64,000 nucleotides of DNA from Siderastrea siderea (taxonomy: Eukaryota > Cnidaria > Anthozoa > Scleractinia > Rhizangiidae): contig OZ034971.1 in assembly GCA_964030785.1 (NCBI GenBank), positions 39,326,804 through 39,390,803 on the forward strand, written 5' to 3'. Of this stretch, positions 6,872 through 43,100 are shown in pieces. Position 1 is the stretch's first letter; the number at the start of each line of letters is the position of its first letter. Below the pieces are notes generated by a model. The model ran no database searches. It was not told the origin of the DNA and saw only the letters and a list, made by a program, of their open reading frames with translations. A program made the translations under genes and the position numbers.

Positions 6872-7408
6872 GTCTTACAACAACGTATTAAAGCTCTCGA
6901 GAGTGCGCAAGGCACCTCCGTCAAGTCAGTGATACAGAGGATATCATATTACGGTGGCAGAAGAGTCGAGGACTTCGACAAATACGAAGCTCTTCGCTAC
7001 GCTGAAGAATTGGCTTCTGTCGCAAAATCTTCCAGTGACCCAAAGGCTGCCAGTTACGATATTATCGCTTCGACTTTGAGAGAGAAGCTGCACGTGCCGG
7101 CAGAGCAGTTCAAGGCGTATTTCCTAGCCTTGTTGGCCGACAAGGATTTCTCTCGCGTTATCGAAACGGTTTCGAAGGTTGACAAATTCTTCCGACGTTC
7201 TATGCCATATCGCACACAGACGCGTAGAGGAAGATTACCGTATCAGCAACCGTATTTTCAGCCCCATCAGCGGCCACCTCCACGTGTTATTTGCTACAGA
7301 TGTGGTGAACCAGGGCATAAGTCTCCCCAGTGTTGGAAACGTGCTCCTTCTCGTCAGCCTTCCTCTTCTGCCCCTTCTCAGCCAGGTCCTCCCCGCCCTT
7401 TGCAATAA
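6872..7408 (+). CDS. Gag-like protein with CCHC zinc knuckle (partial exon)
   Basis: The reading frame opens directly after the putative acceptor AG at 6870-6871 and stays open for about 178 codons. It has a helical N-terminal part (LQQRIKALESA, then EALRYAEELASV), an Arg/Pro-rich linker and one zinc knuckle, CYRCGEPGHKSPQC (C-x2-C-x4-H-x4-C), near the C-terminus, followed by a Ser/Pro-rich tail. In this superfamily Gag packages the element RNA. It is the first protein of the element and overlaps the open RT frame by about 80 nt in another phase. The N-terminus is missing or lies in an upstream exon. Confidence 0.65.
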   Translation, partial: VLQQRIKALESAQGTSVKSVIQRISYYGGRRVEDFDKYEALRYAEELASVAKSSSDPKAASYDIIASTLREKLHVPAEQFKAYFLALLADKDFSRVIETVSKVDKFFRRSMPYRTQTRRGRLPYQQPYFQPHQRPPPRVICYRCGEPGHKSPQCWKRAPSRQPSSSAPSQPGPPRPLQ

Positions 7409-9597: not shown

Positions 9598-9969
9598 CTT
9601 GTCTGGTAAGCCACTACCGTTTTTTTCTGAAACTCCCTTAGTAAACGCTTTGGGAGTAAATGTGTTTGCACAATCGCCCGATTTCTATGGCCCAGAGGTT
9701 TTTTCGAATCCTTAGGTTTCCCGCCCATTTGCCTCATTCCTCAGATCTTTAAATATCTTAACAGTCTGAAGTTGCCCTACACCCTTGTAGTTCCAGACGT
9801 AATTCCACGTCGTTTTTGGTGGCCTTTGCTTTTGTCTGCATGCTCTTCAAGCTGCTTGTTGGCTTCCAAAGGGGCAAGTGGCATTCTTCTCACCCCCTCC
9901 AAGGACGGATTCTTGGGCCACAGGCCGATCCCTTGGGACATTTGGGTTTTCCGTATTTCCAATATATAG
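9550..9969 (+). pseudogene. RT-RNase H C-terminal extension, frameshifted twice
   Basis: Downstream of RNase H a conserved tail typical of DIRS-type polyproteins is visible in pieces. One frame reads SNVQSDLSGKPLPFF then LGVNVFAQSPDFYGPEVFSNP and stops (TAG, near 9712). A second frame then reads FPPICLIPQIF, TLVVPDVIPRRFWWPLL, GASGILLTPSKDGFLG and PWDIWVFRIS before TAG at 9967-9969. So at least two single-base shifts break the protein. The FWWP and PWDxWxFR blocks are what I recognise; I infer, but cannot prove, that they correspond to the methyltransferase-like or linker region of related elements. Confidence 0.55.
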
Positions 9970-10175
9970 ATTAGTAGTGTCTACTCTTGTTTAAGGATAA
10001 TTGAGCTAGCAAAATCTAATGTTACTGGAACATTAATACGTTTCGTAATGCTGTATTTTCAATAAAGTCATTGAGTCTTGCACATTTCGTTCTCCTTGTT
10101 TTTTAATACCTCTTGATTTTCAACAATTGTAGTTATCCATTCTCATCCAATCTTTCTTTTATCTTCCCTCATTAG
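9970..10175 (+). other. probable intron before the recombinase exon
   Basis: This AT-rich stretch has stops in all frames, an AATAAA at about 10060, and a pyrimidine tract ending in CTTCCCTCATTAG (10163-10175), a good splice acceptor. The recombinase frame opens in phase immediately after it. No donor was pinned down. Confidence 0.4.
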
Positions 10176-11507
10176 GACCTTCCACAAGCACAGCGGATTT
10201 TTATCCCGGCTGTAGCTTGCCCTTCTTGTGCCTATGCCAACGATCATTTCTTTCGTTTTTGCCAAATGTGTGGCTACCAAAGAAAGTCAGTTCCGCGGAA
10301 ACCTGCCTCGAAAATAGCAGTAGATCTCGCAGCCATTGACGCTCGTTTGCGGCAGCTTACACAGACGGTTCAGAAGTCTTCGTATTCAAAGCAAAAATCT
10401 TCTTTGCATGTGGAATTTGAAACCTTTTCAGCCTCACTGCCTAGTGCCAGGTCTATCTTTTCAGCCACCCCCGAAGATGTATCGCGTTTTTTGGTATGGA
10501 AAGATCGTCACGGCGAAACAGTTGTCCATGTTACCGATTGTGTGAATGCCTCTAACCAGAATGCCTCTGATTGCGGGTGTCCAAAACGACTTGCGTTTAA
10601 AACTGTTGATTCCTATATTGGGAAGCTTCGCGCCATTTTCAATGAAGCGGGTCGCACTGGGGACTGGAATAGTCTGCTGGGTTTTGGTAATCCAGCTGCT
10701 TCTGTTGTAGTCCAAAGTTATCTTAAGGCTGTATCTGAGGAGCAATTACGTGCACATATCGTCCCTAAGCAGGCGGCCCCGTTTTTTCTACCGAAGCTTT
10801 TGCTCCTGGCAAGGTTGTGGGATAGAAAGATGGCGGATCCTTCAGTCAGTCCTTCCCGTCTTTTTATTCTGGCTCGAGACCAAGCGTTTTTTAAAACTCT
10901 ATTCTTCAGCGCGGATGGAGGTTCTGATTTGGGATGAGTTAAAACCGCAGAAATTCTGCGTTTTCCTAAGGACGATGGTTTTTTGTTCAACCATGTTTGG
11001 GGCAAAACTTTGCGAGACGGTGCCTCTAATGTCTTTGGAATTCGTTGCCATTCACATCCCCAGCTTTGCCCAGTGAAAGCGATTGAAACATATGTGGCTG
11101 TCGCCTCTGAACTGCGCATAACTCTCTCCAACGGCTACTTATTTCGCCCTACTAACCACCAGGGTCATATCCTCAATAAGCCCCTTACAAGTTCTTCTGC
11201 AGAAGCCCGCTTGAAAAATTATTTAAAAGACGCGAAAGTTGATGAAGGCGAGACTCTGCACAGCTTCCGCTCGGGCTCTGCTATTACTCTCGCGTTGTCT
11301 GGGTCCCAGCTGGCTGATGTGATGTCCCATGTGGGTTGGTCCAACAAGGGCACTGCCCTTTACTACATGAAGTTAGCCGAAGTTCTTCATGAAGGATCCC
11401 CTTCTGACTTATTGTCTTCAAATAATTCGGCTGCTTCCATCTCCACAAGTTTATACGCAGATCTTAATCGCTTGAAAGACTTCGTTACTGCGTTTCCTCC
11501 CTCTTAG
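10176..11507 (+). pseudogene. tyrosine recombinase of the retrotransposon, inactivated
   Basis: The frame starts after the putative acceptor with a zinc-ribbon-like CPSC-x12-CQMCG, then an N-terminal SAM-like core-binding region (residues about 60-190), then the catalytic domain. Visible catalytic motifs are HSFRSG (11259-11276), HVGW (11328-11339) and tandem tyrosines ALYYMKL (11361-11366). The first catalytic arginine, expected in a G-D-R-x-x-D-L context, is glycine here (ADGGSDLG, near 10917), and the next codon block contains TGA at 10935-10937, explicable by CGA-to-TGA decay. The frame continues unchanged after the stop. In this superfamily the recombinase inserts a circular DNA copy, without making target duplications. 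This copy should be inactive. Confidence 0.8.
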
Positions 11508-13275: not shown

Positions 13276-16200
13276 CTAAAATATACGCAAGAGAAAAGGA
13301 ATGAGGTTAGTGAAGGATTACACTAACGGACGGGGAAACGAAGAAGACCGCCATTTGCAGTGATAAAGTATCTTAAGATAAGCTTCTGGGTTTTATTTTT
13401 CATTATTGCCATTTGCGTTGTAGCCGGTCTGGTTATAGTTGTTAGGAGCATCAAAAAATTCGCTAAAACGCATGGCTTGAATGCGACAAAGTATTGATAG
13501 CCGAAGGACTAGCTGTACTAGAAGCTTTTAAAACACATGCATTGTCGCAAAATACGCTTACGATTTTCGCCAGGAAGTAATTGTTTTATAATTCTTTCCT
13601 GATTAAAATTCAGACTATATTTACTGCATGCTCATTTGTCTCAAGTATGCTCTGAATATCGCCTTCGAAGCAATGGATAGTCAAACAAAAAAGAAACTCA
13701 AACGTAGCTACGAAAAGTGTTTTGAAATTTTTTTCATAGAAATGTCAAACCTTCAGGGCCGTACAGGTGAAAACCAAGTTAAAGGACTTGAGCGACGTGA
13801 ATATATCTCGTAAGAGAAAACATATTCACCTTCTTAATCTTCTGAAGACTTTTATGAAAAATGTTTTGTAGATTTACCTACGTATGCGTATTCCATAATA
13901 AGGTTTGTTTAACACAGTTTATTAAATAATCGCCTTACTTTGTAGTACACGCCCAACAAGGCTGAAAGATACCAACAGGACGTCGTCGCATTTCCAATAG
14001 TATGTGAAAAAACTATAGCTATTTGTCGTTATTCTTTCTACTTCCACGACAAAAATGGGAATATTTTATAACTTTCTTAATTAAGATATCTTAATCCACC
14101 AAAGAGTAGGTGTAGCAGTTTTTTTACTTGCTCCTCTGTATTGGTATTCCTATACACTCAGGCCACAGACTCAGTCACAGTTAGTTGGGACACTTCAAGC
14201 CAACGCCGTATTTTTTTGCCTTTTCGTGCTCCCTTTCTCCCTCACAATTCAGACAGAAAAGCTTGTACACCAACATAGAGAGGACAAGGAGAGCAGGGAG
14301 ACAGAATGTGTCCCAACCTATGTGTCAGATACTGCAGTTCACCCCAGCAACTTCTTAATCACGTGTTCTTAGCGAGGCTTTTGATTCCGTTTAAGGTCAA
14401 AGCAGCTCGGCACTAAAATAGTTTTTTCGTCGTTGTTATGCTCGCTTTTCTATATTATTTTTACGGACTTTGGACGGCAAAAGGAACACGCGGCAGTGGT
14501 CACGGATAGCAAATGGAACCAAGTAAAGGAACTGCGTAAGCAAAATCAGTACGGACCATAGTACAAATGTTCTTCACTGACGTCAAGCGGCCCGCGCATC
14601 AAACGTGTACCTTTTTGGACTAAGGACGGTTCTACAGCAGCTATACTCTACAAAACATCGGCTTAATACAGTGTTTATTCTAATATATTAAACGTCGCCA
14701 TCTCAGTCCGATCCGTATCTGCATGGGTCAGTTGGTATAAGGTTTTTTTTCTCCGTATAACTTTGACTGCAAGCTCACGAACTACGAATTTAAAGAATGA
14801 AGTAACCGATTGAAAACGCTCCGAAAACGGGGATTTTGGAAACGCAGTCCAATGTATAGGGAATTTTATCGTTTATAAGTGCACGGCAGAATTTTAATTT
14901 TTTTTTAGATTCGACCGTCTATTCTCACGTTAATGATCGAAAAAACAAAGGTTTTCGAAAACGATGACGTAGAACAGTAAACAAGTCACTACAAAGTAGC
15001 TTTTTGGAATGGAAGAAAGAAAATATCCACAACGAAAAGAGGTGGACGGGCCTTTTAAGATTTAAAAATGTTGTGATTAAATTCCGAGGTGTGCCGTGCA
15101 CTGAAAGCTATTGAACAACTGAAAGCTATTTTATATTACTTTTGTCAGGATGTAGTTCGGAGTTCCTGTTTCTTGAGCTTGAACATGCACGTGCACTCCA
15201 AAGTGTGTTAGAAGACTGTTCACTTAAGGTGATTCCATCGAAATAGAAGGGATATTTAAAATTTTCTAAGACTTGGTAGAATTGGTAACTATGTTTAGAA
15301 CATTTTAAAAATGCGATAAAAAATAGGCGTCACCGAGCTTGTTTTGGCACAACATGGATAGCCATTTGTAGCAACTATACGCCCCGAAGGTTTTCCTTAG
15401 AAACCCTAGTACTCAGAAATGAGAGCTATAATTGCTTAAAAAGTGTTTGCTTGTATTGAAATGTTGGAGCAGTTCAACAAAATAGACATTTATCTTGCAC
15501 TGTACTCTATCTTAGTTGAACAGGAATTAAGGATATGCAAAAAATTAAAGAATTTACCGCGTGTTTACATACCCTGCTGTACCTAAAGACGTGTTCTTCT
15601 CGGCATTTAAATAAAAATATCCCAAAGCAGAATTTTTTAGTTTTTCTCGAAATCGCGATATATTGTACTCGAGCGTGTGCCATTTGAATTTGTGTATTAA
15701 AAAATGGGGGTCACCGAGCTCGTTTAGGAGAAAACGACCTGTTTTTCTCTGAACTGCTCAGCTTTCATAGAAAACCTACCAAATTCCGAAGGTGCGAGCG
15801 CTCGTGCGCGCGCTTATCACGCAAAAAAGACGCGCAGAAAGGATGCGCAATGCAATTAAAGGGCATCACCTTAACGCACCTTCTCCTGCATGTATTAACC
15901 CTATCCACGAGTTCTTCTCTTCTATAAATGTCGAGTGGACTCATCCTCGCTTTCATCCCCACCTTCTCCCCACCCCCAGTTGGTTTTACTCCAATCGCAT
16001 GCAACTGAATTCTGAACTAAGAATACTTTTAATAGGAAACTACTTTTCAATGTACATTTCCACTGTGATATTTAAACGCTTGCTGACATAAAATATCTAG
16101 AATATAATTAATAATATTCTAGTGTTGTACCTCTAACGTAGTAATCAGTGAATTACATCAGTATAGCAAAAGGTGCTCTAAACGATTCCAATTTGTATCT

Positions 16201-16319
16201 TGATCATGCTTTAAAATGTCAATATCTCAGAGATTTTAGCTTATTATTAAAAGGCCAAAACTGTTGAAGTGTGTTTGCCAATTTACCCTGTGAAAATGGT
16301 ATGAGTACGCTATTACACT
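13276..16319. other. non-coding unit sequence, unit 1
   Basis: This is homologous to 35670-38065 (unit 2) and 59970-63225 (unit 3). It starts with the last codons of the oxidoreductase remnant (GCAAGAGAAAAGGAATGAG, 13289-13307). No other gene is recognised. It gives empty sites for later insertions in the sister units: 13730-13740 (unit 2 MITE), 14241-14275 (unit 3 LINE) and 15088-15095 (unit 3 MITE). Confidence 0.6.
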
Positions 16320-16334
16320 CGTTTGCGATAACTT

Positions 16335-18404
16335 TTTTTTTTCTTACAATACGTAATTACATATAATACAAATACTCCACACTGTTCTAGAACGATACAG
16401 GCTTTGTAGACTACGAGACGAAATTTACAAAGAAATGCTTAACAATAACTTATAATACCTAATTACTAAAACAATAACTTATAATACTCAATTACAAAAT
16501 AATACACTAACCTACAGGGCAAAAACATAGGTAAACGAATTGTTTGGCATAGAGCATTAGCACAGCTAACAACAAACAGACGGATGCACACAGGAGTCAC
16601 ACACATACCTCTAGGTCCTCTAGCCCTATAACACAGCGGCCCAAGTTTCTGTAAATTGTTCCAGATTGTTATTTGTAGATGCTATTGTTCGCAGAATAGT
16701 AAGCTTCCTTTTCAGGCGTGAGAGAAAACCTTCAAAGTCCAGGCTGCCATTGCCTACACTTGTGGTGAAAATGTGGTATTTTGCAATAATGAGCGTTTAG
16801 TTGAGCATTAACCAGGTGTTTGATTTTTTGTGCCAGCCGTACAGAATTACGCTTTCGGGTAAATTTATTTGTTCCTGAACTGGTTCCAAAACGACGAGGA
16901 AGAATGACATGAAAACAACATGTAGCTTAAAGATTGGCTTTCAGAATTGCACAAGGGGCATATGTCACTGTATTTTATACCCAGACGGAACAAGCTAGCT
17001 AGATTGCGTGGGTAAGATGTTATGAATGATTTTAAACTGGAAAATTATTAACTTTGGCTTCTTCAAAATATGAAATGGAAGCATATAGACACTTTGGATG
17101 TTGTCTGTAGTGAAGCCATAATTTAAAATCTTGCTCTCAGCTGTTGGTAGAGAGTAGATTTTGCCAAGTATGGTCGAGTAAGCTATTTTGGTGGAGGGAA
17201 GTAAGAGAGACAGTAAGAGTTCTGATGGGGCAACTCTTGAGACATTCGTATTTTGGATGTTTTCTTTCCAACTTGCGCGCGGGGATAGCATTTAATAGGC
17301 CATAATAGACAGTGAAAGGTACTTCTAGGTCGAATTTTGTTTTAAGATCGGTTAGGGAAAGAAAATTTGAGTCTTCGTTAAATAAATTCTTGATATAAAT
17401 TCATTCCTTTTTTTGAGCCAGGATTTATACATAATTGGTTTTCCAACCACGAGAATGTTACGATTGTTCCAGATTATTTGGTTCTGTGCTGCTTTTTCAT
17501 CATTAGTTAAGAGTTTAAAATTTTGCCAGTAACTCAGAATGGTTCGGTAAAATTCAGGCAGGTTTTGAAGGACGCAAAAATGAATATCATACTGGCATTG
17601 AGTGAAAAACGCGAATCCACCGTATTGGCTCAACGCCTGTTCTGGAATTATTTTCCACGCGGCGTGGTTGTTTTCTGCAATTCTTTTAATCCAAGCTAAT
17701 TTGAGTGACCGTTCCATAATTTCAAAGTCGATCATTTCTAGTCCACCATGTTTTTTTTTGGCAATAATAGTCTTTTTCTTTATTTGGCAGGTTTGCCATC
17801 AAAAAGGAAATTAAAAATGATTTTGTTAATTCTCTCTACAGTTTGTTTCGACATTGCCAATACAGAAGCCCTGTGAATAAGTTTGGACAAGCCTAATGTT
17901 TTCACAATGTGTATTTTTCCAATAAGAGTGAGTTTTCTTTGCTTCCAGCTATTGAGAGTTTTTTCCCTGACGTGGCTATCTTATCTTCCAAATTAAGCTT
18001 CTTGGCGCGTTCAGAATCAAAAGAAAAGTACACTCCAAGGGCGATAACAGGATCATGTGACCACTTGAAACCGAAGGGTTTCTCCGTACGGCTTTTCCAT
18101 GTACCTAACCACATGGCTTCTGTTTTGCTGGTGTTAATTTCTAGGCCATTAACTTTTTTGAATTCTTCTTAAAGTTTTAATAATCTTGGCACCGAGTCGT
18201 AGTCACGTACCAGGACCGTGGTGTAATCCGCATATTGTGTGATTTTTATTTCTTTTTGGCCTACATTAATACCAGTCCTTTGATATTCGGGTCGTTTTTT
18301 AAAAGCCCTAGCCAAGAGTTCGATTCTGATAACAAAAAGGAGGCCCGACAAGTGACAACCTTGCCTACCTCCTCGCTCAAGAAGGAAGAATTCGGATGCA
18401 TGGC
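16335..18404 (-). mobile_element. L1/Tx1-like LINE fragment, unit 1
   Basis: A 2.07-kb 5'-truncated LINE lies between perfect 15-bp target duplications (CGTTTGCGATAACTT, 16320-16334 and 18405-18419). Its poly-A tail appears as the plus-strand T run at the left. Minus-strand RT pieces in order are GLLFVIRIELLARAF, the catalytic box YADY (codons 18234-18223, normally YADD), EINTSKTEAMWLG, then IALGVYFSFDSERAKKLN, and the C-terminal MERSLKLAWIKRIAENNH and KIIHNILPTQ. An in-frame TAA between the YADD region and EEFKKVNGLE is shared with the unit 2 copy, so the element was already dead before duplication. Unit 3 has the uninterrupted site at 63225-63239. Confidence 0.85.
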
Positions 18405-18419
18405 CGTTTGCGATAACTT

Positions 18420-21400
18420 GCTATCAGAACCAAGTTTAGCAGCGCTCGAGTAACAGAAAATTTTAAAAAAGAGTTATTAAAAAATGCAGCCCTGTTGAAG
18501 AATATAAAAATAAATTCTAGTTAAGCGGTAGACATAGTAGGTGATCCGGCTGGTGGCGTTTAATTCGGGGATTCCCCTAAGGCCCTCAGATGACGTAACA
18601 CAATAACAAGTGTTTCCGCTTTTCCAGGAAAAGACTTTCACGTACGTTCTGTGAAGACCGCTTGCGTAACACAAATTTTAGCAAAAAAATAATTCTAATT
18701 ATTTCCATTTCACTCCTCCTGTTTCTCCAACAGAAATAAGATAATCTTTTAAGGGAGATGCCTTAAGTTATACTTAAATTGGACAATCTTGTTGTTATTG
18801 TTGCGTGACCCGGTCGCGAGCTCATCTCCCGATGAACATTGCCAAGAGCTCTCTTGGCATTGCTAATTCCTAGAAACCATGTTTACCTTTCCGAGAATTA
18901 CCTTTGCAGTATTCAAAATAAAGTGGGAAATGAACAGTAAATTGCAGTTTCATTCGTCTCTACTCCATCTGAATTCCTCATCCGTGGCCTTATGCTTTGA
19001 TATAAAGAAAGGCTAATCGATAATTCGATATCAAATCAACGGCCCCTAACTGACTGGAGAGGGGGTACTCCCTTATATTAACTAGATATTCACACTATTT
19101 GCAGCCCCACTTTAACCTAAAGCAGGGTATATTGTAGGCTCCTGTATAGATTTTGACCATTTTGGTCTAAATTAGGGTGTGGTTTGTGATTCTGGTCTGG
19201 AACTGGGTGTTTTTAGAAGTTACTTTTTATTATTATCTTCTCTTGAGAAGTGTGTTTTGATTATTATCAGAACTTTGAAGCCCTTCTCAAATATCTACGC
19301 AAACCGAAGCAGTTCCGAAATAGGGACGTCGAAATTTGGGTCAGGTCTGAAATAGGGTAGGGAAAGTAACATATTTTAATCTAAAATATGGTAAGCTAGG
19401 GTTTCAAGGTGTCCCACACTCCCACCCAAATTTTAGGGAAGTACCTCTCCCCGGGCCCAAAACCGACGGGTCCCGCATCCCGTGTCTGATAGAATGCTCA
19501 TCCCTACTCACTTGGCTGAGTGTGAATCCCAGAGCGGGGGGGGGGGGGACACTTGCCTAATGTTTGGCTCTAGGGGTGCCACTGAGGGTTTGAAACCCTG
19601 ACCATGTTCAGGACAAAAAATGCTCTACAATACCTACTCTGTAAAGGACAACACCAGGCTGCATAATTTTTAGGTCCCTGTTTAGGGCAAATGACAACAT
19701 TCCCTTGTTTTAAAAGTGTTTCAAATAGCAGCAAATGTCCCTGTAAAGGAGACATATAGAGGATATTACACTACAGCGCGAAGATATGAAGTTTATTTTC
19801 GAGTGGTATAAACAATATTTTATGACCTGAGCGCAGCATGAGTAAAATATTGTTTCTTACCACGAGTAAATAAAATTCATATCTTCAAGCTGCCCTGTTA
19901 TTTTCTTTTTATTACATAGACAAGAGTGTTTTTGCACGAAAAAAAGTGTCATCAAAAGCGGGATTAATGGCATCAGCGATATCCTCACTAGCGAGGATGT
20001 GGAAAATACACCACTTGAGTAGCTTCGTATGAACTTTATTTATTTTCCGCTAAAACACTGTTGTCTATATAATAAAAGGGAGTGTCCCCCGGGGGGTGTG
20101 CATTGACTGAGGTCGTAATATTTACTGGTTTTTTCGCACTTTGGCCTACTTAGTGGGAGTTGACTGCGAAATTCACTGGTATAGATTTCAACATCCCCTG
20201 TCTAGCTGGGGTGCAGACATAAATCCCTGCAACTGCCGGGCACCTTTAAGGTGCATCTAGCACCCCACCCTCATAACTGTGATTTCAATTATATCAGTTT
20301 CTTAAATAACATTTTCAAAGACATCATACCATTCAATGCAGAGTTTTTGCCCTTGAATTGAAACAACCATTTTCGTTGTCTAAAATATTTCATTGTTATT
20401 TTTGTCCCTTCAGAAAGACAAGGAAAATCAAGGAGACACAATAAGGGGGAATTTTTAAGTTAAATGAAATACACTTTGACACTAAGTGAATGTAATCTAA
20501 ATCATTCCACTTTATTGATATAACATTAACTTAAGGATTATAATTACAAAACAGTCGTTTATGTTCACAATTAGCCTGAAGAAAAACACACAAAAAGGTT
20601 TGGGAGAATCAGAAAGCTCAGGTGAACCAATAAAATGGAAAAAGCAGTATACTCTGATATTCTCCATCCCAAACTGTCCTGTGTCTTAACATTAGACTAC
20701 CAAAAATAAGAACACAAATTAAGGTACGGATATGATTATGCCATAAAAGTTTTCCATACTGGCTAAATGTAAACAATAGTTAACAACAGTACATGTTTAG
20801 GACAACTTCAAGTGTTTGTATGTGAACCTTAAAAGGACATATGCTGAAATTCTCCCTGAGAACCTCTCATTGGGAGTTAATCAGGTCCCAGAGGTTGTAA
20901 ACACAGATTCGTGAAGAAAAAAATCTAACAAGTTCTCATTATGTTTAATATACACTGCTGAGTGTTTACACCTGACTTACTCAGTGTAATCTCAAACTAA
21001 CACTAACAAAGAAGGAGAATAAATTTATTGTCATAATAACAGTGTTTTGCACAGATTAGTGCATCAATGTATTGCAGTGAGTTTGAGAGAACTTGAATGA
21101 TTCTGTGACGTTTTGCTTTCATTCTCCCAAACTCTCTCCACTGCACAAATTGACAATACACTAGAAAAATAAAAATTAAAACAATTTAAAATGACAAAAT
21201 ATTACTGCAACAGTTTAAGGAGGCTTGAAAGGGTTTTTAGTTGCGCGCACCTAGCCTACACACAACATGGCTAGAATGCACAAATCATCCATGGCAACTG
21301 AATTGAAATTTCTAGTAAAAGTCGCCTGTGCAAAATACTGGAAGTGAAAATATGGCATAAATTTCGCAAACCGGAAATAGAACGTGCACGAAACATTTGT

Positions 21401-24400
21401 TTTTATTGAGAAATTTTGCTTGCCAACCCATCCAGCTTTTTCACATGCATGTAGCCTTCAGTGTGCTAAGTCAAATAGAACTGTTTGGAGAATAGTTATT
21501 CAGTGGAACTTTTTGTAATTAAAAAAAACCTTTTCAATATAACTTAAGTACTACTGAATTAAATTATAATTAACTCTTTGTCATACTGCTAGAAAAGTTA
21601 AAGAATTTAGGGCGCTTGCTAAAAATGGAATAAAAAGGGTAGGTCACCAACTTAGTTTTTTAGACACTTGGCAAAAAACTGAAATTTGGAAGGTCTTTTG
21701 TTAACCTTAAGTGTTGCCATGGTAATTATGGCTAATTGACGTTTGTTGTCACAATCAGCCTTAAAGTATGGCCCATTAAAAGAGGTATTAAGATATGCAT
21801 GGTTTGCCCACATGGTCAGAAATACTTTTTTGTAACAGCTTTCCTCTTTTCAAAAGGACTAAACAATTAAAAACCCTTTTGAGCCACCTTAAAACACTTT
21901 GCCTGATACAAATATGGCAATGAATTTGAGAGAAATTTAATGCTTGCGAAAACCGAAGCAAATACATCACACTTATTATAAAAAAAATCAATTAACCAAG
22001 AAATAATAACTGTATTTACCTAAGCTAACGTATAAACACAGGAGAGGGACTCTCATTATTTAAAAGTGACAGAGAGATCTGACAGAGATACTTGTTGGAG
22101 AATGAATACTAAGGAAAAAACAAGAAAGAAAGAAACCCCTCAATGCACCAGAACCATGTTTTGAGCATATGATACCAGTTTGTTTTTACCCAGCAAATAA
22201 TAATACAAAACATTAACTGAAAATTGTCTAATTTTTTACATCACTGGCAGTCAAATCAACTGAGTTATGTAATTTTAGCTGGCACTATTTTAGTATTTAC
22301 CTTACTTGTACCACACGGTAAAATACCATAACACACTGTATAGGTCTGACTTAGTAAATGTTGAAACTAATCAACCTTATAGTGGTACCAAAATCGTATT
22401 TTAAATCCTGAACGTACAATGTGCAATCACTACGGTCACTTTAAATAACAGACCACCCCCCCCCCCCCCCGATTGCTAATCTAGGATGTCAGTTATACAG
22501 GGTGTGTTTAGCTTAACACTCCTGTCACGTTTAAACAAATACATGTAGTTCCCCACACCCCTCCTTCCAAAAAAAGATATTATTAAACAATTATTCCACA
22601 TGGAACTACTTCATTGGATAATTAATGAAAAATACAATGTAAACAACTCCTATCAAACAGGTGCAATACAAATAATTATTGTTTTATTAAATTGTTGTTG
22701 ATTTTTTGTCTTTAAATTTTTTGGACAAATGTTTGTTTTACGGATAAGCTTTTGAATGCTGTGGCACCTGACATAGCATTCATTGAGGCAAAAAGCAAGG
22801 TTATTCACAGAATGATAAAGTGTGTGCAGCGTTCCAATGATGGACTGCTTTCAACCCTTTCAGGATAGTCGAGAGCGAGACTGTAGCGAGGAAGAAAGAC
22901 AACAAGAGACTGTTCCCCCTCAGCTCTTGGATCCAGGTTTTACTTTCTTTGCTTTTTTTTCTCACTTTCAGCTATCCAGAAAGGGACTGCTAGTAGTTTA
23001 ATCAAATGAGAAAACTAGATTCAGAGTTTTTAAACAACATATAATTTAAAAACTTGTGACTTACGGTAAATAAGCTAAGACAGTAATCTATTATTTATAA
23101 AAAAGACCGGTGTTTAAACTTCAGTAATACTATAAACTGCCTAAAATATAAGTAATGTTCACGCAAAAGTGAATTAAATGTTTGTCATGGTCTCAATGAG
23201 TTCTTTTGGCCAAAAAGCCACAGTTCACATGCATCTAATAATTCTCTTACTACAGCTATACAAACTATATAAAGTGTCAGTAACTTAAGTGATACTGTAT
23301 TGCCAACTAATTACACTGTAATTGACAAGGAAAATGAGTGATGATATTCTTTTCTGAATCATTGTTAACAAGAAGTCGAAATAGACTGGTAACAGCCAGG
23401 CCACTTTCAATCCCCTATGATGCTCCCCTTCCCCATGGCCAGTCAGCCCCCAAGGAAAAAACATAGATTATCCACATTATGTTGGACAGGTCACATATAT
23501 AACTAGTCAGCATATTTTAGGAGGAATTGTTGACACCCCTCGCTGATCTTACAAAAATATTAGAGCATGACAAAGTTCAATGTTATGTATGAATTCAAAC
23601 ATTTTTTAGCCTGGATGTCAAAAACAGACTGTAAAAGTCAATCTACGTAACGTGTATATCCAGTATTTCGAATATTTCAAATCCATTCTCCAAAATCACA
23701 TGAGAGACCGAATGAACTCTTCAAAATGACAAAGAAGAACTTGACAATTCCTGCAAGATTTTGAATTCCCACAGAAATTTATAGAAATTGAATCAGGCTA
23801 GTATTTCAAATCGATTGTAAATTTATTTTTTATTTTAGGTTTGCCACAACCAGTTGAAACCATAGTTTGTATGTTGATGTCAAAACAACATAAAAGTGAA
23901 GAGTGTACAAACCTGACTTCTTAACTTACACTGCCTCAGTCAGTGACCTGAAAGCGGAGATTTCTCACACAATTCCGCTTAGGTAGGATAAAGAGAAATT
24001 AGGAGAAATTAATTAAAACAACATATACAAGCTTTAGAGCTAAATAATACGGTATTACACCTTTATATAAATAATAAGCATGAGAAAAAAATTATCTATC
24101 ATAGAAATCTACCATGGCAAACAATTTACAAATAAACAACACAAAATTGACTGTTCTGACAAGGGTCTAATTTGTTTTGGCTCCTGCTTTCTCACTTGAA
24201 CACAAAAGCAGTTCAGGATGAAACTTTTCTTTTTGAAAAACACAGGGAGCATTTTGATTTTTAACACTCTGTGGGCAGTGAAGCATAAGAAAGAACAACA
24301 AATCTGAAACTGGAGAAGCTGAAAGTTTTAATTGACTTCATTTGAAAAGTAAATGTGTGTCATGTTTTTAACCTCTCCAAAATAGACTATTGCCAGTTAA

Positions 24401-24823
24401 AGTACAATTCAAAATGACAAATAAAGAACACAAGCTGAGGAAATCTTTTACAAATTCATTTAAAGCTTGATATCAAATTATTTTTACCCAAACAATTATA
24501 GTCTGTCAGAAGTCTGTAAGGTTATATTAAGGCTAGTTCATTATAACAACACTTGCAAAAAACATGGCAGAAGATTTTTAAAGGGTGCACTTAATTTGTT
24601 CGGTCTTTTATAATATGAGTTTTCGACACAAAACTGCAATATTTAAACTGACAAGGAAAATACTGTATGAATTTCTGTGATCTTTTTTTGTTTTTGTTTT
24701 ATAGTGTATTCCAACAGCAATGATTGTGATATGCAACTGCTGTAAAAATACATTTACTTTACTGTGATGTTATTTAACTTATTGTCTTCTTGTTCTTGCG
24801 CTATAAAAAACACATGATGAGTT
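18420..24823. other. 6.4 kb non-coding, duplicated at 40151-46945
   Basis: No gene is recognised. It includes the recurrent module with GGTAGACATAGTAGGTGATC (about 18525), a region with repeated AGGACA and AGGGCA motifs (19600-19690) resembling the MITE at 52639, and a poly-C run (22457-22470). The sister copy in unit 2 is nearly identical over the whole length, apart from the 380-bp MITE at 44992. It lies directly 3' of the NHL gene and could include 3' UTR or a downstream exon. Confidence 0.5.
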
Positions 24824-26491
24824 TTAAATAACAATTACCTTGCCATTGCGATCCTCATCTCTTACAGCTACAGCAATGTGACCCTCCATGGTCACTGTAA
24901 TCCCTCCAAACCAGTGAATCCTTTCTTCATCGAGTGCAACGGTTCGCACAAACTCGCCATCTTTAGTGTATATATCCACTCGCGGGCGGTCTGTTCCTCG
25001 TTCTTCACAAGCGATGACGACATGTTCACCTGCAGGGTGGGAAGCCATTTTATAGTAATATCCTTTGGTGTTAATGTTGAACTTGTTCAGCTGTGTTCCA
25101 TCCTCGGTGAATACGTGAACACAGTGATCACAGTCAGGCACCATCACACTGCCGTCAGGGTCTGTGGTTATGTCCCATGCATCCTTCAATATTCCTTCTC
25201 CAAAGCTACAGATATATCCTCCGTCATGGTTGAACACATCAACAACAGGTTTGCCCCTACCAGTCCCCCTCAATACCAGCACTTTGTTGCTGCTAACTGT
25301 CAGTCTGCCGCCCCAGACCCCTCTCCTCACAGGAAACTTGTTCAGCCGGTCACCACTGTTCTGGTACACATGCATTTCCAGCTCCCATCCCTCAGCCCCA
25401 GGCTTCCTCAGTCTGACCAGTACATAGATGTTACTGTTGTTCAGGTTAGTGGCGACATCAAGAATCTCTAACTTTGTATCGGCGTCATCAGTTTGAGTTT
25501 TAAAACTGTGAAGAAACTTTCCGCTGCTACTAAACACCTTGACTGTTTTATCCCCATTGTCTGCTATGATAAACTGTCCGTCGGTGTTTGTAGCGATACC
25601 GCGCGGATGTATCAGCTTGTGCTCCTCTTCACCCTCCTGACCAAATGACCATGGTACACAGCAGTGTTCCATGCCTTGTTTCTGCAGTACTTTAGCAACG
25701 CTTGCGTCACGGAGCGGGTCGACTTTCTTTACTTCAGTGTCAACACATGGCCAGTTGTTTGCAGACAGCTCTTTTTTGCCCAAATTGGTCATAAGCGTGA
25801 CATCGTAGATGACGCGATTCACGTGACAAACAGTGGAAATGATTTTCCTCCGTTCATCTTTACTAAACCGAGCCCAGAGCCCTTTCTTAAGCTCGACAGT
25901 AAAACATTCCTTAACAGCTGACAGACAGTGTAGTTCTTCAATGCACACTCTACACGCTGATAATGCATCTTCAGGATTGTCAACCGTCTCCAGTATTGTC
26001 GCCATAACTCGATATTGCATGGCTAATACGCGGTCAGACAATTCTAAAGCTTGATTAGCGAAGGCCTCTGTTGCTTTTTCACGAGCACGTTCAAACCTTT
26101 TCTTCGCGTTGGCCAGCGTTCTCGTAGCTGATTCATCCAGGTCAGTAAGATCCAACATTCTTATTCCTTGAGCAAGTGAAACTGCTTCAGCGCTATCTGT
26201 TGCAGCTGCTTGTGCTGTCGCCCCACCGCACTCGCTTCTGGGACTTGCCTTTTGAAATACTTCATACAATAACTGGATACCTTCCTTGAAAAAGCTCATG
26301 CTAGCTAACAAATCCTTTCTTGCTAATCCGTCTAACTTCGACTTGATGTCGTCGATTTCTCGCACGATCAAGCCACGGAATTTCTGATCTGTCACATCGC
26401 CTTCTTTCAGTCTTTCTGCCGCTACGTCTCTTCCTTTATTCACGAGCAGGCCGATAGTGGCTTTAAACACAGCTGTTACAATGGAAGCCAT
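24824..26491 (-). CDS. NHL-repeat six-bladed propeller protein with N-terminal helical module
   Basis: 555 aa, one uninterrupted exon, ATG in a good context (GTCATGG). Residues 1-265 are predicted helical (ATIGLLVNKGRDVAAERLKE, then FRGLIVREIDDIKSKLDGLA, and a coiled region near 125-165); I do not know this module. Residues 280-555 form six NHL-like blades, starting at GIATNTDGQFIIADNGDKTV (298), DVATN (345), RLTVSSN (396), DITTDPDGSV (440), ASHPAGEHVV (483) and GITVTMEGHI (530). No RING, B-box or signal peptide is seen, so a TRIM label is not justified. NHL propellers bind RNA or protein on their top face. The coding end AATGGCAAG-GTAATTG is also a perfect splice donor, so a further exon may exist. 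The paralogue at 46946-50604 is broken. Confidence 0.85.
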   Translation of the reverse strand: MASIVTAVFKATIGLLVNKGRDVAAERLKEGDVTDQKFRGLIVREIDDIKSKLDGLARKDLLASMSFFKEGIQLLYEVFQKASPRSECGGATAQAAATDSAEAVSLAQGIRMLDLTDLDESATRTLANAKKRFERAREKATEAFANQALELSDRVLAMQYRVMATILETVDNPEDALSACRVCIEELHCLSAVKECFTVELKKGLWARFSKDERRKIISTVCHVNRVIYDVTLMTNLGKKELSANNWPCVDTEVKKVDPLRDASVAKVLQKQGMEHCCVPWSFGQEGEEEHKLIHPRGIATNTDGQFIIADNGDKTVKVFSSSGKFLHSFKTQTDDADTKLEILDVATNLNNSNIYVLVRLRKPGAEGWELEMHVYQNSGDRLNKFPVRRGVWGGRLTVSSNKVLVLRGTGRGKPVVDVFNHDGGYICSFGEGILKDAWDITTDPDGSVMVPDCDHCVHVFTEDGTQLNKFNINTKGYYYKMASHPAGEHVVIACEERGTDRPRVDIYTKDGEFVRTVALDEERIHWFGGITVTMEGHIAVAVRDEDRNGKVIVI

Positions 26492-35730: not shown

Positions 35731-38065
35731 CAAGACTGCCGTTTGTTGATTTTAAAAGTATCTTACGATAAGCTTCTGGGTTCTATTTTTCATTACTGCC
35801 ATTCGGGTTGTAGCCGGTCTTGTTATTGATGTTAGGAGCATCAAAAACTCGTTAAAAACGCATGGCTTAAATGCGATAAAGTATTGATAGCCGAAGGACA
35901 AGCTGTATTACAAGCATTTAAAACACATTGTCGTTTAGGATTTTTACCAGGAAGTAATCTAGTAATTGTTTTAGTTTCCTTTCCTGATTAAAATTCAGAC
36001 TGTATTAAGTGCATGCTCATTTGTCTCAAAGTTTACCAGCGCTCTGAATAACGCCTTCGAAGCAATGGCCGGATAGTCGTACAAAAAAAAAAGATAACAA
36101 AAAAAAGTTTACGCAAACGAAGCTTTGAAAAATGTTTCGAAATTTTCAGGGGCGGATCCAGGGGTGTGGATTGGGTGGCTAGGCACCCCCCTCTTTGGAG
36201 TCATTTAAGCGGCTTAAAATTAAGAAAATTAGCAAAACTATCATGGAGACCACTTCGTCACCGATTGTTCCGGTGTTGTTCTGTCAGGTGAGCCACCCCG
36301 CGTTCAAAAATCCTGGATCCGCCACTGATTTTCTAATAGAAATGTCAAACCTTCCGGCTGTATCGGTATTAACTAAAGAATACGAAATCCAGGTGAAAGT
36401 TCTTCAGCGAAGTGAATATACTTTGGGGACAAAACTTATTGACTTCTTATAGTCTTCTGACGACTTTTATAAAAAAAAATGTTTTGTAGATTTACCTCCG
36501 TATGCGCATTCCATAATAAGGTTTGTTTACTTTAACTAGTTTGCCATTAAATAATCGCCTTAGCTTTCTATGCCGAGTACACACCCAACACGGTGGAAAG
36601 ATAGTGATGAGACGTCGCATTGCCAATAGTATGTGAAAAATCTGTTGGCTATTTGTCGTTATTCTTTCTCCTTCCAAGCCAAAATGGAAATATTTTATAG
36701 TTTGTTATTTAAAATATACTAATCCACCAAAGAGTAGGTGTAGCAGTTTGCTTCGTTGTCATTGTCGCTTTTCTGTATATTTTTACGGACTTTGGACGGC
36801 AAAAGGAGTACTCTCCGGCACAGTGGTTACGGATACCACATGGAACTAACTAAACATGCTAAAGGAACTACGTTTCAAACGAAATTACTGACCGTAGTGC
36901 AAATGTACTTCACACCGTCAAACAGGGAAAATATTCGCTGACGTCAAGACCCGGGCATCAAACGTGTACCTTATTGGATTAAAGACGGTTCTACAGCAGC
37001 TATACTTTGCATAACAACTGCTTTAGTTAATAGAGTGTGTATTCAATATAATTGAGGTCGCCATCTTAGACAGATCCGTGTCTGTGTGAGTTAGTAGGCA
37101 ACTTTCCTTGCTTTTGTTTCTCAGCCAGTGCGACTGCAAGCTTGTGAACTATGAAAGAAAAAAATGTAAGCAATTGAAAATGCTCCAAAAATGGGGATTT
37201 ACGAAACGCAGTCCAATGCATGGAGATTTTTTCAAAATAAAGATTTTGTCGTTTACAAGCCTGTGCGCGGCAGAATTTTTTTGTCAAGATTCGCCTTCCA
37301 TTCTCATGTAAACGATTGAAAACAAAGGTCTTGGAAAACAATGAGTTCAACAATAAACAAGTCACTCCGTTTAAAGTAGCTTTTCGAATGGAAGAAAGAA
37401 AACGATTCACAACGGAAAGAGGTGGACGGGCCTTTTAAGATTTAAAAATCTTGTGATAAAATCCCGAGGTGTGGTTGCATTGAAAGCTATTGAACAACTG
37501 TAAGATACCAGTTGCATTACCATTTCTTTTTTCATACTGCAGCTCTTTCTCCATGACTTCACAAAACACTCTTTCCTTGAACCTTTCCTGATTTTTGAGC
37601 TTGAACACACGCGGACCATTCACCTAACGCACCTGCATGTATTCATCCTCTCCACGAGTTCTTCTCTTCTATAAATGCCGACTAGACTCACCCTCGCTTT
37701 CATTCCCACCTTCGCCCCACCCCCAGTTGGTTTTACTCCAATCGCGTGCAACTGAATTCTGAACTAAGAATACTTTTAATAGGAAACCACTTTTTAATGT
37801 ACATTTCCACTGTGATACTTAAACGCTTGCTGACATAAAATATCTAGAATATAATTAATAATATTCTAGTGTTGTACCTCTAACGTAGTAATCAGTGAAT
37901 TACATCAGTATAGCAAAAGTGCTCCAAACGATTCCAATTTGTATCTTGATCATGCTTTAAAATGTCAATATCTCAGAGATTTTAGCTTATTATTAAAAGG
38001 CCAAAACTGTTGAAGTGCGTTTGCCAATTTACCTTGTGAAAATGGTATGAGTACGCTATTACACT
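35731..38065. other. non-coding unit sequence, unit 2
   Basis: Counterpart of 13330-16319. It differs mainly by the MITE at 36147-36327. Relative to unit 1 (about 15130-15870), the stretch corresponding to 37490-37625 has a deletion of roughly 600 bp. Confidence 0.5.
36147..36327. mobile_element. 181-bp MITE with CAG-GGCGGATCC termini, unit 2 only
   Basis: It begins CAGGGGCGGATCCAGG and ends CCTGGATCCGCCACTG. Units 1 (13725-13745) and 3 (60417-60440) have the uninterrupted site, so it inserted after the units split. The duplication is unclear (ATTTT on both sides). Ends of this type are common in hAT-like MITEs. Confidence 0.75.
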
Positions 38066-38080
38066 CGTTTGCGATAACTT

Positions 38081-40135
38081 TTTTTTTACAATACGTAATT
38101 ACATATAATACAAATATACTCCACACTGTTCTACAACGATACAGGCTTTGAAGGGTACAAGACGAAATTTAAAAAGAAATGCTTAACAATAACTTATAAT
38201 ACTTAATTACTAAAACAATAACTTATAATACTCAATTACAAAATAATACAATAACCTACAGGGCAAAAACATAGGTAAACGAATTGTTTGGCATAGAGCA
38301 TTAGCACAGCTAACAACAAATAGACGGACGCACACAGAAGCACACACATACCTCTAGCCCTATAAAACAGCGACCCAAGTTTGTGTAAATTGTTCCAGAT
38401 TGTTATTTGTAGATGTTATTGTTCGCAGAATAGTAAGCTTGCTTTTCAAGCGTGAGAGAAAACCTTCAAAGTCCAGGCTGCCATTGCCTACACTTGTGGT
38501 GAAAATGTGGTATTTTGCAATAATGAGCATGTAGTTGAGCACTAGCCAGGTGTTTGATTTTTTGTGCCAGCCGTACAGAATCACGCTTTCGGGTAAATTT
38601 ATTTGTTCCTGAACTGGTTCCAAAACGACGAGGAATGATGACGTGAAAACAACATGTGGCTTAAAGATTGGCTTTCAGAATTGCACAAGGGGCATATGTC
38701 ACTGTATTTTATACCCGCACGGAACAAGCTAGCTAGCTAGTTTGCATGGGTAAGATGTTATGAATGATTTTAAACCGGAAAATTATCAACTTTGGCTCCT
38801 TCAAAATTTGGAATGGAAGCATATAGACATTTTGTATGTTGTTTGTACTGAAGCCATAATTTAAAATCTTGCTCTCAGCTGTTGGTACAGAGTAGCTTTT
38901 GCCAAGTATGGTCGAGTAAGCTATTTTGGTGGAGGGAAGTAAGAGAGACGGTAAGAGTTCTGATGGGGCAACTCTTGAGACATTCGTATTTGGATGTTTT
39001 CTTTCCAACTTGAGCGCGGGGATAGCATTTAATAGGCCATAATAGACAGTGAAAGGTACTTCTAGGTCGAATTTTGTTTTAAGATCGGTTAGGGAAAGAA
39101 AATTTGAGTCTTCGTTAAATAAATTCTTGATTTGAATTCATTCCTTTTTTTGAGCCAGGATTTATACATAATTGGTTTTCCAACCACGAGAATGTTACGA
39201 TTGTTCCAGATTATTTGGTTCTGTGCTGCTTTTTCGTCATTAGTTAAGAGCTTAAACTTTTGCCAGTAACTCAGAATGACTCGGTAAAATTCAGGCAGGT
39301 TTTGAAGGACGCAAAAATGAATATCATACTGGCATTGAGTGAAAAACGCGAATCCACCGTATTGGCTCAATGCCTGTTCTGGAATTATTTTCCACGCGGC
39401 GTGGTTGTTTTCTGCAATTCTTTTAATCCAAGCTAATTTGAGTGACCGTTCCATAATTTCAAAGTCAATCAGTTTTAGTCCACCATGCTTTTTTTCGGCA
39501 ATAATAGTCTTTTTCTTTATTTTGGCAGGTTTGCCATCCCTAAGGAAATTAAATGATTTTGTTGATTCTCTCTACAGTATGTTTCGACATTGCCAATACA
39601 GAAGCGCTGTGAATAGGTACAAGCCTAATGTTTTCACAGTGTGTATTTTTCCAATAAGAGTGAGTTTTCTTCGCTTCCAGCTATTCAGATTTTTTTCCCT
39701 GACGTGGCTATCTTATCTTCCAAATTAAGCTTCTTGGCACGTTCAGAATCATAAGAAAAGTACACTCCAAGGGCGAGAACAGGATCATGTGGCCACTTGA
39801 AACCGAAGGGTTTCTCCATGCGGCTTTTCCATGTACCTAACCACATGGCTTCTGTTTTGCTGGTGTTAATTTTTAGGCCACTAACTTTTTTGAATTCTTC
39901 TTAAAGTTTTAATAATCTTGGCACTGAGTCGTAGTCACGTACCAGGACCGTGGTGTCATCCGCATATTGTGTGATTTTTATTTCCTTTTGGCCCACATTA
40001 ATACCAGTCCTTTGATATTCGGGTCGTTTTTTAAAGCCCTAGCGAAAAGTTCGATTCTGATAACAAAAAGGAGGCCCGACAAGGGACAACCTTGCCTACC
40101 TCCTCGCTCAAGAAGAAAGAATTCGGATGCATGGC
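38081..40135 (-). mobile_element. L1/Tx1-like LINE fragment, unit 2
   Basis: Sister of 16335-18404, with the same 15-bp duplication CGTTTGCGATAACTT at 38066-38080 and 40136-40150. It keeps the canonical catalytic YADD (codons 39966-39955), where unit 1 has YADY. It shares the in-frame TAA upstream of EEFKKV and the C-terminal MERSLKLAWIKRIAENNH and SRVAPSELLPSLLLPS blocks. It is inactive and 5'-truncated. Confidence 0.85.
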
Positions 40136-40150
40136 CGTTTGCGATAACTT

Positions 40151-43100
40151 GCTATCAGAACCAAGTTTAGCAGAGCTCGAGTAACAGAGAATTTTAAAAA
40201 AGAGTTATTAAAAAATACAGCCCTGTTGAAGAATATAAAAATAAATTCTACTAGAGCGGTAGACATAGTAGGTGATCCGGCTGGTGGCGTTTAATTCGGG
40301 GATTCCTCTAAGGCCCTGAGATGACGTAACACAAAACAAGTGTTTCCGCTTTTCCAGGAAAAGACTTTCACATACGTTCTGTGAAGACCGTTTGCGTAAC
40401 ACAAATTTTAGCAAAAAAATAATTCTAATTATTTCCATTTCACCCCTCCTGTTTCTCCAACAGAAATAAGATAATCTTTCAAGGGAGATGCCTTAAGTTA
40501 TACTTAAACTGGACAATCTTGTTGTTATTGTTGCGTGACCCGGTCGCGAGCTCATCTCCCGATGAACATTGCCAAGAGCTCTCTTGACATTGCTGATTCC
40601 TAGAAACCATGTTCACCTTTCCGAGAATTACCTTTGCAGTATTCAAAATAAAGTGGGAAATGAACAGTAAATTGCAGTTTCATTCGTCTCTACTCCATCT
40701 GAATTCCTCATCCGTGGCCTTATGCTTTGATATAAAAAAAGCTAATCGATAATTCGATATCAAATCAACGGCCCCTAACTGACTGGGGAGGGGGTACTCC
40801 CTTATATTAACTAGATATTCACTGTCTGCAGCCCCACTTTAACCTAAAGCAGGGTATATTGTAGGCTCCTGTATCGATTTTGACCATTTTGGTCTGAATT
40901 AGGGTGTGGTTTGTGATTCTGGTCTGGAACTGGGTGTTTTTAGAAGCTACTTTTTATTATTATCTTCTCTTGAGAAGTGTGTTTTGATTATTATCAGAGC
41001 TTTGAAGCCGTTCTCAAATATCTACGCAAACCGACGCAGTTCCGAAATAGGGACGTCGAAATTTGGGCCAGGTTTTAAAAAGGGTAGGGAAAGTAACATA
41101 TTTTAATCTAAAATATGGTAAGCTAGGGTTTCAAGGAGTGTCCCTGACACGCCAACCAAATTTTAGGGGAGTACCTCTCCCCGGGCCCAAAACCAACGGC
41201 TCCCGCATCCCGTGTCTGATAGAATGCTCATCCCTACTCGCTTGGCTGAGTGTGAATCCCAGAGCAGGGGGGGTGGGACACTTGACTAATGTTTGGCTAT
41301 AGGGGTGCCACTGAGGGTTTGAAACCCTGACCATGTTCAGGACAAAAAATGCTCTACAATACCTACCCTGTGAAGGACAACACCAGGCTGCATAATTTTT
41401 AGGTCCCTGTTTAGGGCAAATGACAACACTCCCTTGTTTTTAAAGTGTTTCAAATAGCAGAAAATGCCCCTGTAAAGGAGATATATAGAGGATATTACAC
41501 GACGGCGCGAAGATACAGTATGAAGTTTATTTTCGAGTGGTATAAATGATATTTTACGAATGAGCGCAGCATGAGTAAAATATTGTTTCTTACCACAAGT
41601 AAATAAAATTCATATCTTCAAGCTGCCGTGTTATTTTCTTTTTATTACCTAGACAAAAGTGTTTTTGCACAAAAAAAAACAGTGTCGTCAAAAGCGGGAA
41701 ATGGCATCAGCGATATCCTCACTAGCGAGGATATGGAAAATACACCACTTGAGTAGTTTCGTATGAACTTTATTTATTTTCCAATAAAACACTGTTGTCT
41801 ATATAATAAAAGGGACTGTCCCCCCGGGGGGTGGGCATTGACTGAGGTCGTAATATTTGCTGGTTTTCTCGCACTTTGGCCTATTTAGTGGGAGTTGACT
41901 GCAAAATTCACCGGTATAGATTTCAACATCCCCCGTCTAGCCGGGGTGCAGACATAAATCCCTGCAACTGCCGGGCACCTTTAAGGTCCATCTAGTACCC
42001 CACCCTCATAACTGTGATTCCAATTATATCAGTTTCTTAAATAAAATTTTCAGACATCATACCATTCAATGCAGAGTTTTTGCCCTTGAACTGAAACAAC
42101 CATTTTCGTTGTCTAAAATATTTCATTGTTATTTTTGCCCTTCAGAAAGACAAGGAAAATCAAGTAGACACAATAAGGGGGAATTTTTAAGTTAAATGAA
42201 ATACACTTTGACACTAAGTGAATGTAATCTAAATCATTCCACTTTACTGATATAACATTAACTAAAGGATTATAATTACAAAACAGTCGTTTATGTTCAC
42301 AATTAGCCTGAAGAAAAACACACAAAAAGGTTTGGGAGAATTAGAAAGCTCAGGTGAACCAATAAAATGGAAAAAGCAGTATACTCTGATATTCCCCATC
42401 CCAAAATGTCTTGTGTCTTAACATTTAGACTACCAAAAATAAGAACACAAATTAAGATACGGATATGATTATGCCATAAACGTTTCCCATACTGGCTAAA
42501 AATTATGTAAACAAAAGTTAACAACAGTACATGTTTAGGACAACTTCAAGTGTTTGTATGTGAACCTTAAAAGGACATACGCTGAAATTCTCCCAGGACC
42601 TCTCATTGGGAGTCAATCAGGTCCCAGAGGTTGTAAACACAGATTCCTGAAGAACAAAATCTAACAAGTTTTCATTATGTTCAATATACACTGCAGAGTT
42701 TACACCTGACTCACTCAGTGTAATCTCAAACTAACACTAACAAAGAAGGAGAATAAATTTATTGTCATAATAACAGTGTTTTACGCAGATTAGTGCATCA
42801 ATGTATTGCAGTGAGTTTGAGAGAACTTGAATGATTCTGTGACGTTTTGCTTTCATTCTCCCAAACTCTCTCCACTGCACAAATTGACAATACACTAGAA
42901 GAATAAAAATTGAAACAAATTATTTAAAATGACAAAATATTACTGCAACAGTTTAAGGAGGCTCGAAAGGGTTTTTAGTTGCGCGCACCTAGCCTACACA
43001 CAACATGGCTAGAATGCACACATCACCCAACTGAATTGAAATTTCAAGTAAAAGTCACCCGTGCAAAATACTGGAAGTGAAAATATGGCATAAATTTGGC

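Follow-up and report, generated by a model that had tools for sequence, protein, structure and literature searches.

The 64-kb window (the whole stretch of DNA analysed here; C6 39326804-39390803, 39.7% GC) contains two copies of a gene for a β-propeller protein. A preliminary description had proposed that the copies differ almost only on one propeller face, in the manner of immune or allorecognition receptors. This raises the question of what the gene encodes, whether selection has acted on that face, and how its variants are generated and passed on.

A stony coral family of NHL propeller proteins

Unit 1 was read, like all gene models here, as an open frame only. Its features are as follows.

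24824-26491, minus strand: unit 1 gene, 555 aa in a single open frame, with a helical N-terminal half and a six-bladed NHL propeller
25754-26491, minus strand: N-terminal half (residues 1-246), conserved and all-helical, Ka/Ks 0.37 in the cluster
24827-25657, minus strand: NHL propeller (residues 279-555)
25598-25630, minus strand: variable cassette, blade 1 D-A (residues 288-298)
25544-25561, minus strand: variable cassette, blade 1 B-C (residues 311-316)
25457-25483, minus strand: variable cassette, blade 2 D-A (residues 337-345)
25376-25417, minus strand: variable cassette, blade 2 B-C (residues 359-372)
25304-25330, minus strand: variable cassette, blade 3 D-A (residues 388-396)
25241-25273, minus strand: variable cassette, blade 3 B-C (residues 407-417)
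25172-25189, minus strand: variable cassette, blade 4 D-A (residues 435-440)
25118-25141, minus strand: variable cassette, blade 4 B-C (residues 451-458)
25043-25066, minus strand: variable cassette, blade 5 D-A (residues 476-483)
24974-25009, minus strand: variable cassette, blade 5 B-C (residues 495-506)
24899-24943, minus strand: variable cassette, blade 6 D-A (residues 517-531)
24836-24868, minus strand: variable cassette, blade 6 B-C (residues 542-552)

Pfam and a structure model both identified a six-bladed NHL fold in unit 1. Fold comparison of the model gave matches to RNA-binding NHL domains that span the propeller. The N-terminal half was modelled as all helical, with pLDDT below 50 at residues 18-35 and 84-113, and had no credible sequence match in Pfam or the PDB (best PDB E-value 2.3). 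Neither RING nor B-box, and neither NACHT nor NB-ARC, appeared in the Pfam listing of unit 1 (four families, to E 1) or among the 25 of 30 Pfam families listed for 29 N-terminal halves. Unit 1 is therefore distinct from the TRIM-NHL proteins (TRIM71/LIN-41, Brat, Thin, Mei-P26), in which RING, B-box and coiled coil precede the propeller, and from the NLR/STAND proteins with their NACHT or NB-ARC NTPase. The coral family also differs from TRIM-NHL proteins in having another helical N-terminal half and a large, fast-changing repertoire. The Kyte-Doolittle mean over 19 residues peaks at 1.34, at residue 1, so that hydropathy alone reveals no membrane-like stretch. Since membrane spans usually reach a level of ~1.6, the protein is probably intracellular and would act inside the cell. 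Its first 18 residues are mildly hydrophobic and may, we presume, resemble the N-terminal helices of pore-forming cell-death domains.

Unit 1 belongs to a large family. In a search with its protein, at least 2542 of the 8000 proteins scored reached E 0.001 or better, a count that may mix family members with other propeller proteins. Among the 360 records of three listings (one of them the best 120 of the 2542), all named relatives were stony corals: Porites lobata, Porites lutea, Porites harrisoni and Oculina patagonica. Virus contigs contained no relatives, and bacterial and archaeal contigs gave three weak matches to part of the propeller. The coral's own genome (831 Mb assembly, 402 contigs) held at least 79 matches, some of them non-intact with internal stops. 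A group of 27 matches, all minus-strand, occupies C6 39.02-40.33 Mb; 20 of the 27 are intact and full-length, each a single frame of 555-587 aa, and they fall into two N-terminal types (L004-L008 versus the remainder). None of the 360 protein records listed bears a functional name, and the coral literature that was searched does not describe the family as a receptor. In its available text, that literature discusses expansions of TLRs, NLRs and lectins. Its single mention of an NHL expansion in corals concerns NHL repeat orthogroups OG141 and OG236, perhaps of the present family, which are reported as expanded in merulinids (PMC11639872), and the available text of a paper on coral tandem duplication does not use the term 'propeller' (PMC10236652).

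Diversifying selection on the top face

The two copies named in the preliminary description were both recovered at their positions. The second copy and the duplication around it are laid out as follows.

46946-47893, minus strand: unit 2 propeller, an open frame separated from its own N-terminal half
49807-50599, minus strand: unit 2 N-terminal half, of the second N-terminal type; its first 18-20 residues were not detected, and its frame shifts near 50273
47918-49806: DNA of ~1.9 kb between the unit 2 halves; ORF at 48541-48930 without Pfam match
15885-25754: segmental duplication block of unit 1, pieces of which pair with 37632-47879 at 93-95% identity
37632-47879: segmental duplication block of unit 2

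Unit 2 was thus correctly placed as a propeller paralogue, but it is not a simple duplicate of unit 1. Read unspliced, it looks disrupted: its start is gone, its frame has changed and ~1.9 kb lies between N-terminal half and propeller.

The replacements between units 1 and 2 cluster on one face, as had been proposed. Changed residues numbered 18/53 in D-A loops, 17/39 in B-C, 1/19 in A-B, 1/19 in C-D and 15/147 in strands, or 35/92 in the top loops (D-A and B-C) and 2/38 in the bottom loops (A-B and C-D); these counts come from a hand-transcribed residue list with indels left out, and the blades and loops were delimited by eye from the sequence before the structure model existed. From residue 274 on, the pair shows 64.8 nonsynonymous differences over 647.4 sites and 8.2 synonymous differences over 186.6 sites (Ka/Ks 2.38). 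The multi-base and whole-codon changes described earlier were also found: 22 of 71 changed codons in residues 247-555 differ at two or three bases, and nine codons were gained or lost between the units, every one in frame. The downstream non-coding DNA is nearly identical (95.8%; 48 mismatches and 18 gap positions in 1581), and its divergence is close to the synonymous rate of the two units.

We then calculated Ka/Ks for the 20 intact genes of the C6 cluster as 10 independent nearest pairs; unit 2, L043, L047, L027 (out of frame beyond residue 494) and the remaining non-intact matches lay outside this set. A ratio below 1 at the loop sites had been named in advance as speaking against diversifying selection. 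The pooled top-loop ratio was 3.06 (bootstrap 2.03-4.59), rising to 3.85 (2.94-5.08) at 18 positions equivalent to ligand contacts, and top-loop Ka exceeded Ks in 189 of the 190 pairs of these genes. Adding three non-intact copies gave 3.15. Elsewhere the ratios were 0.37 (0.30-0.43) in the N-terminal half, 0.40 in the linker, 0.37 (0.21-0.76) in the bottom loops and 1.01 (0.71-1.59) in the strands, which as a whole are not under purifying selection. When the loop mask was slid to 307 other offsets, none matched the observed 365 of 537 nonsynonymous differences (next best 349). Relaxed constraint or gene decay could also yield many replacement changes, and some copies are indeed non-intact (unit 2 and the matches with internal stops). 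Yet the same 20 intact genes give 0.37 in N-terminal half and bottom loops and 3.06 on the top face, and the codon gains and losses of the window pair are all in frame; we give this explanation hardly any credence.

A FUBAR-type site model on 21 sequences (L043 and L006 left out, unit 2 and L047 kept) identified 55 of 274 sites as selected at posterior >0.9. Forty-five lie in the D-A (22/50) or B-C loops (23/39); by element the others are B 5, D 3, A-B 1 (the one site in the bottom loops), A 1, C 0 and C-D 0. A single tree stands for each region in this model, even though recombination disrupts trees; the pairwise counts, which need no tree, are in agreement, and propeller thirds, each with its own tree, returned 15, 10 and 21 sites, chiefly in the same loops. 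Null simulations without recombination (five settings, five runs each) produced one false site over all 25. In the structure model, 50 of the 55 selected sites fall in the top half, three in the bottom half and two midway, where the halves (135, 123 and 16 residues, respectively) were assigned by strand ends rather than spatial distance. Together, the pairwise ratios and the site model support the proposal of diversifying selection on one face.

We compared these sites with the RNA contacts of human LIN41/TRIM71, given in the available text as R608, R625, R655, K672, D673, Y702, R720, R751, R796 and R814 (PMC5908797). In hand-counted alignments to TRIM71 chain 8j72_A, the contacts fall at four repeated blade positions: directly before and directly after a conserved proline, and one and two residues past the VAD-like end of strand B. 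In blade 1 the first three are residues 295, 297 and 312, their equivalents in the other blades being assigned by hand. For these three positions, split from the fourth after the selected sites were known, 16 of 17 testable equivalents were selected, compared to 39 of the 257 sites elsewhere (Fisher p = 1.4e-11); the fourth position is selected in no blade, and its inclusion changes the counts to 16/23 and 39/251 (p = 8e-8). Net charge at the selected sites ranges from -9 to +5 among 19 copies (contact and charge counts left out L043, L047, L006 and L007), and such mixed charges do not point to a single kind of ligand. The contact equivalents and the modelled fold would suit a family that binds RNA like TRIM71 or Brat, with a top face that tracks varied RNA targets such as those of viruses or transposons. 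The charge range contrasts with the basic patch that the text available attributes to RNA-binding NHL domains (PMC9070667, PMC5908797), and we consider RNA binding of this kind improbable.

The pattern extends to further family members, whose variation remains concentrated on the top face rather than spread evenly. In 38 independent protein pairs chosen for close N-terminal halves, differences were fewest in the N-terminal half (2.7%, 246/9256), intermediate in strands (9.7%) and bottom loops (9.2%) and most frequent in top loops (25.9%, 829/3196). P0082 and P0091, identical over 243 aligned N-terminal residues, differ at 22/85 top-loop, 18/147 strand and 8/38 bottom-loop residues. A wide alignment, A1 (121 of 122 rows, the fused P0003 being omitted), had its highest mean entropy in the D-A and B-C loops (1.78 bits), followed by the remaining loops (1.13) and the strands (0.87); 10 of its 45 most variable positions precede the propeller, which counts against a strictly one-sided reading. 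In three protein clusters (51, 38 and 8 proteins), the share of comparisons with a difference is 67%, 75% and 69% at contact positions and 6-13% in bottom loops. Five more distant clusters (69, 11, 10, 6 and 4 proteins), compared for family proteins longer than 540 residues, gave 38-69% versus 8-24%. The remaining cluster, P0039/P0051/P0059/P0067 (4 proteins), differs at only 9% of contact positions, so that contact positions are far more variable than bottom loops in eight of the nine clusters of at least four proteins. In other branches of the same genome, top-face Ka/Ks was 0.33 at C6 40.8-41.1 Mb (5 pairs), 0.91 and 0.45 in the C14 groups (four changes in all and one informative pair, respectively) and 0.74 in a C12 pair near saturation. 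These comparisons indicate that top-face variability is widespread, with some branches lacking the pattern.

Propellers and N-terminal halves with different histories

The preliminary description had offered gene conversion as a mechanism, and exchange between paralogues is supported by mismatched divergence of propeller and N-terminal half and by shared propellers. In L004 and L013, synonymous differences number 98.5 over 170 sites of the N-terminal half, compared to 4 over 187 of the propeller. Between units 1 and 2, synonymous divergence falls from 0.94 for residues 247-273 (18 sites only) to 0.045 in the propeller, from which propeller and downstream DNA have apparently been exchanged between two N-terminal types. 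Protein P0001 joins the N-terminal half of L004 (6/246 differences) to a propeller nearest that of L014 (23 differences), and its N-terminal half differs from that of L014 at 147 of 273 aligned columns. Conversely, P0062 has the same N-terminal half as L014 (0/268 differences), and even its nearest propeller differs at 59 of 119 top-loop columns.

Across 23 copies, each of the twelve cassettes has between 10 and 20 different protein versions. Neighbouring cassettes show a mean rank correlation of 0.04, within the shuffled range, and no clear correlation with the N-terminal half (L043, L047, L006 and L007 left out). This absence of linkage fits free exchange and also fits saturation. Two further observations concern non-intact copies. 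L043, which matches from residue 245 on, has a propeller without difference from that of full-length L025, and the upstream DNA of the two is unalignable; partial copies of this kind may be donors or recipients in exchange. L047 is 97-99% identical to L023 upstream of the propeller and bears the L025/L043 cassettes with one residue changed.

The propellers of P0057/P0058 and P0060, on other contigs, are identical to those of L019 and L011. Such recurrence makes an assembly artefact less likely; although the contigs may be of the same individual, the cassettes are probably inherited through the germline and not produced somatically. Change concentrated in cassettes is also what targeted hypermutation or somatic diversification, in place of selection, would give, and L014 and L018 differ at 39/840 propeller positions and 2/1496 downstream, but also at 13/894 in the N-terminal half and 23/1248 upstream. 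We had taken this pair as a candidate island of change inside near-identical DNA and rejected it, as the full count shows the upstream side to be less clean. Some of its alleles (e.g. GAG at 295 of L018) are unmatched in 21 other copies, so there is no donor among the copies compared. Top-loop synonymous change is not much above that of strands (35.1/576 versus 47.7/1077), all four bases occur at every position of the selected codons, and propellers recur unchanged in other contigs, perhaps of the same individual. On these grounds hypermutation or somatic diversification appears very unlikely.

A possible recognition repertoire and its counterparts

Taking selection and exchange together, we think it probable that the family is a germline-encoded repertoire of coral recognition proteins, each with a constant helical half and an NHL propeller whose top face is diversified by both processes. 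In such a repertoire the constant half would carry the six-bladed propeller, and the D-A and B-C loops would form the face that binds ligand in TRIM71, LIN-41 and Brat. Positive selection would diversify this face gene by gene; non-allelic exchange in the cluster would keep the framework alike and shuttle propellers between N-terminal types. The top face would meet varied ligands, either non-self or self-marker, and the helical half would report, perhaps passing the signal on through membrane action or oligomerisation. An immune or allorecognition role is what this arrangement suggests. If so, the family offers a molecular handle on how corals distinguish pathogens, symbionts and one another.

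The closest parallel is the HNWD/NWD genes of the fungus Podospora anserina (HET-D, HET-E). According to the available text, selection there falls on codons 7 and 9 of the d-a loop and on 25 and 27 of the b-c turn, at the propeller top, and the genes evolve in concert; the residue that separates the two selected d-a positions is conserved, and pseudogenes keep preserved repeats (PMC1805685). Paired d-a and b-c selection of this type, together with exchange between paralogues, is found in the coral family, with selected pairs at 295/297, 342/344, 437/439 and 479/481 (D-A) and 360/362, 454/456, 496/498 and 544/546 (B-C). The coral proteins differ in having NHL rather than WD40 repeats and no NACHT, and the middle D-A residue, conserved in the Podospora text seen, is also selected in blades 2, 4 and 5 (343, 438 and 480). 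Whereas the repeats of HET-D/HET-E are near-identical, coral blades share 13-39% identity (mean 25%; 10 pairs, blades 1-5 of L004), so exchange would act between genes and not between blades. Since placement and pairing are alike, but on diverged blades of another propeller family, the coral family resembles HET-D/HET-E in working and is not a member. On balance, and with less assurance than for the repertoire itself, we favour the view that stony corals hold an animal counterpart of HET-D/HET-E: a large inherited set of constant-body, variable-face NHL receptors without NTPase, convergent with the fungal proteins in blade positions and in the mode of exchange plus selection, and serving immune or self/non-self recognition. 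Fungi and animals would then have independently reached one solution, varying the propeller top face and fixing the remainder.

The variants might instead mark self within the species, as in Podospora HET-D/HET-E, rather than sense pathogens. Comparable selected blade positions, inter-gene exchange and non-intact copies with open propellers, as described in the Podospora text available (PMC1805685), are consistent with such allorecognition, as are the single dense cluster and identical N-terminal halves with differing propellers, such as those of P0062 and L014. Colony contact, however, is extracellular, whereas hydropathy reveals no membrane-like stretch; a purely within-species role is a possibility that we regard as doubtful. 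Two other known systems invite comparison. Invertebrate TRADD-N/DED proteins with WD40 propellers (Branchiostoma, oyster) share lineage-specific expansion, a constant N-terminal part and variable propellers; the available text of that account contains no site-level selection on propellers and does not use the term 'NHL' (PMC8195603). Coral tachylectin-2 (Oculina) is likewise a coral propeller protein under positive selection, but, in the text seen, it is a five-unit lectin propeller with unclustered selected sites and conserved sugar-contact residues (PMC2880987).

Further observations concern the DNA around the two units. The unit 2 N-terminal remnant (50593-49807) is 99% identical to L020 over residues 21-127 and 82% over residues 132-287, a drop that may mark the edge of an exchange close to the frame change. 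Some 28 codons of the unit 2 gene occur on either side of the 47918-49806 DNA, for which we would guess a retroelement origin. Adjacent ORFs at 6929-11507 encode a zinc knuckle, a weak reverse transcriptase match (below cut-off), an ALOG domain (E 3e-23) and a phage-integrase-type recombinase, a set that suggests to us a DIRS-like retroelement. Pieces of a third, partial copy of the ~22 kb unit (~72-88% identity) extend from 57666 to the window end at 64000. A tandem array with a ~247-base unit (copies at least 99% identical, with inverted partial copies of ~122 bases) occupies 53103-55017, and a short-period tandem repeat array of ~600 bases lies at 5057-5658.
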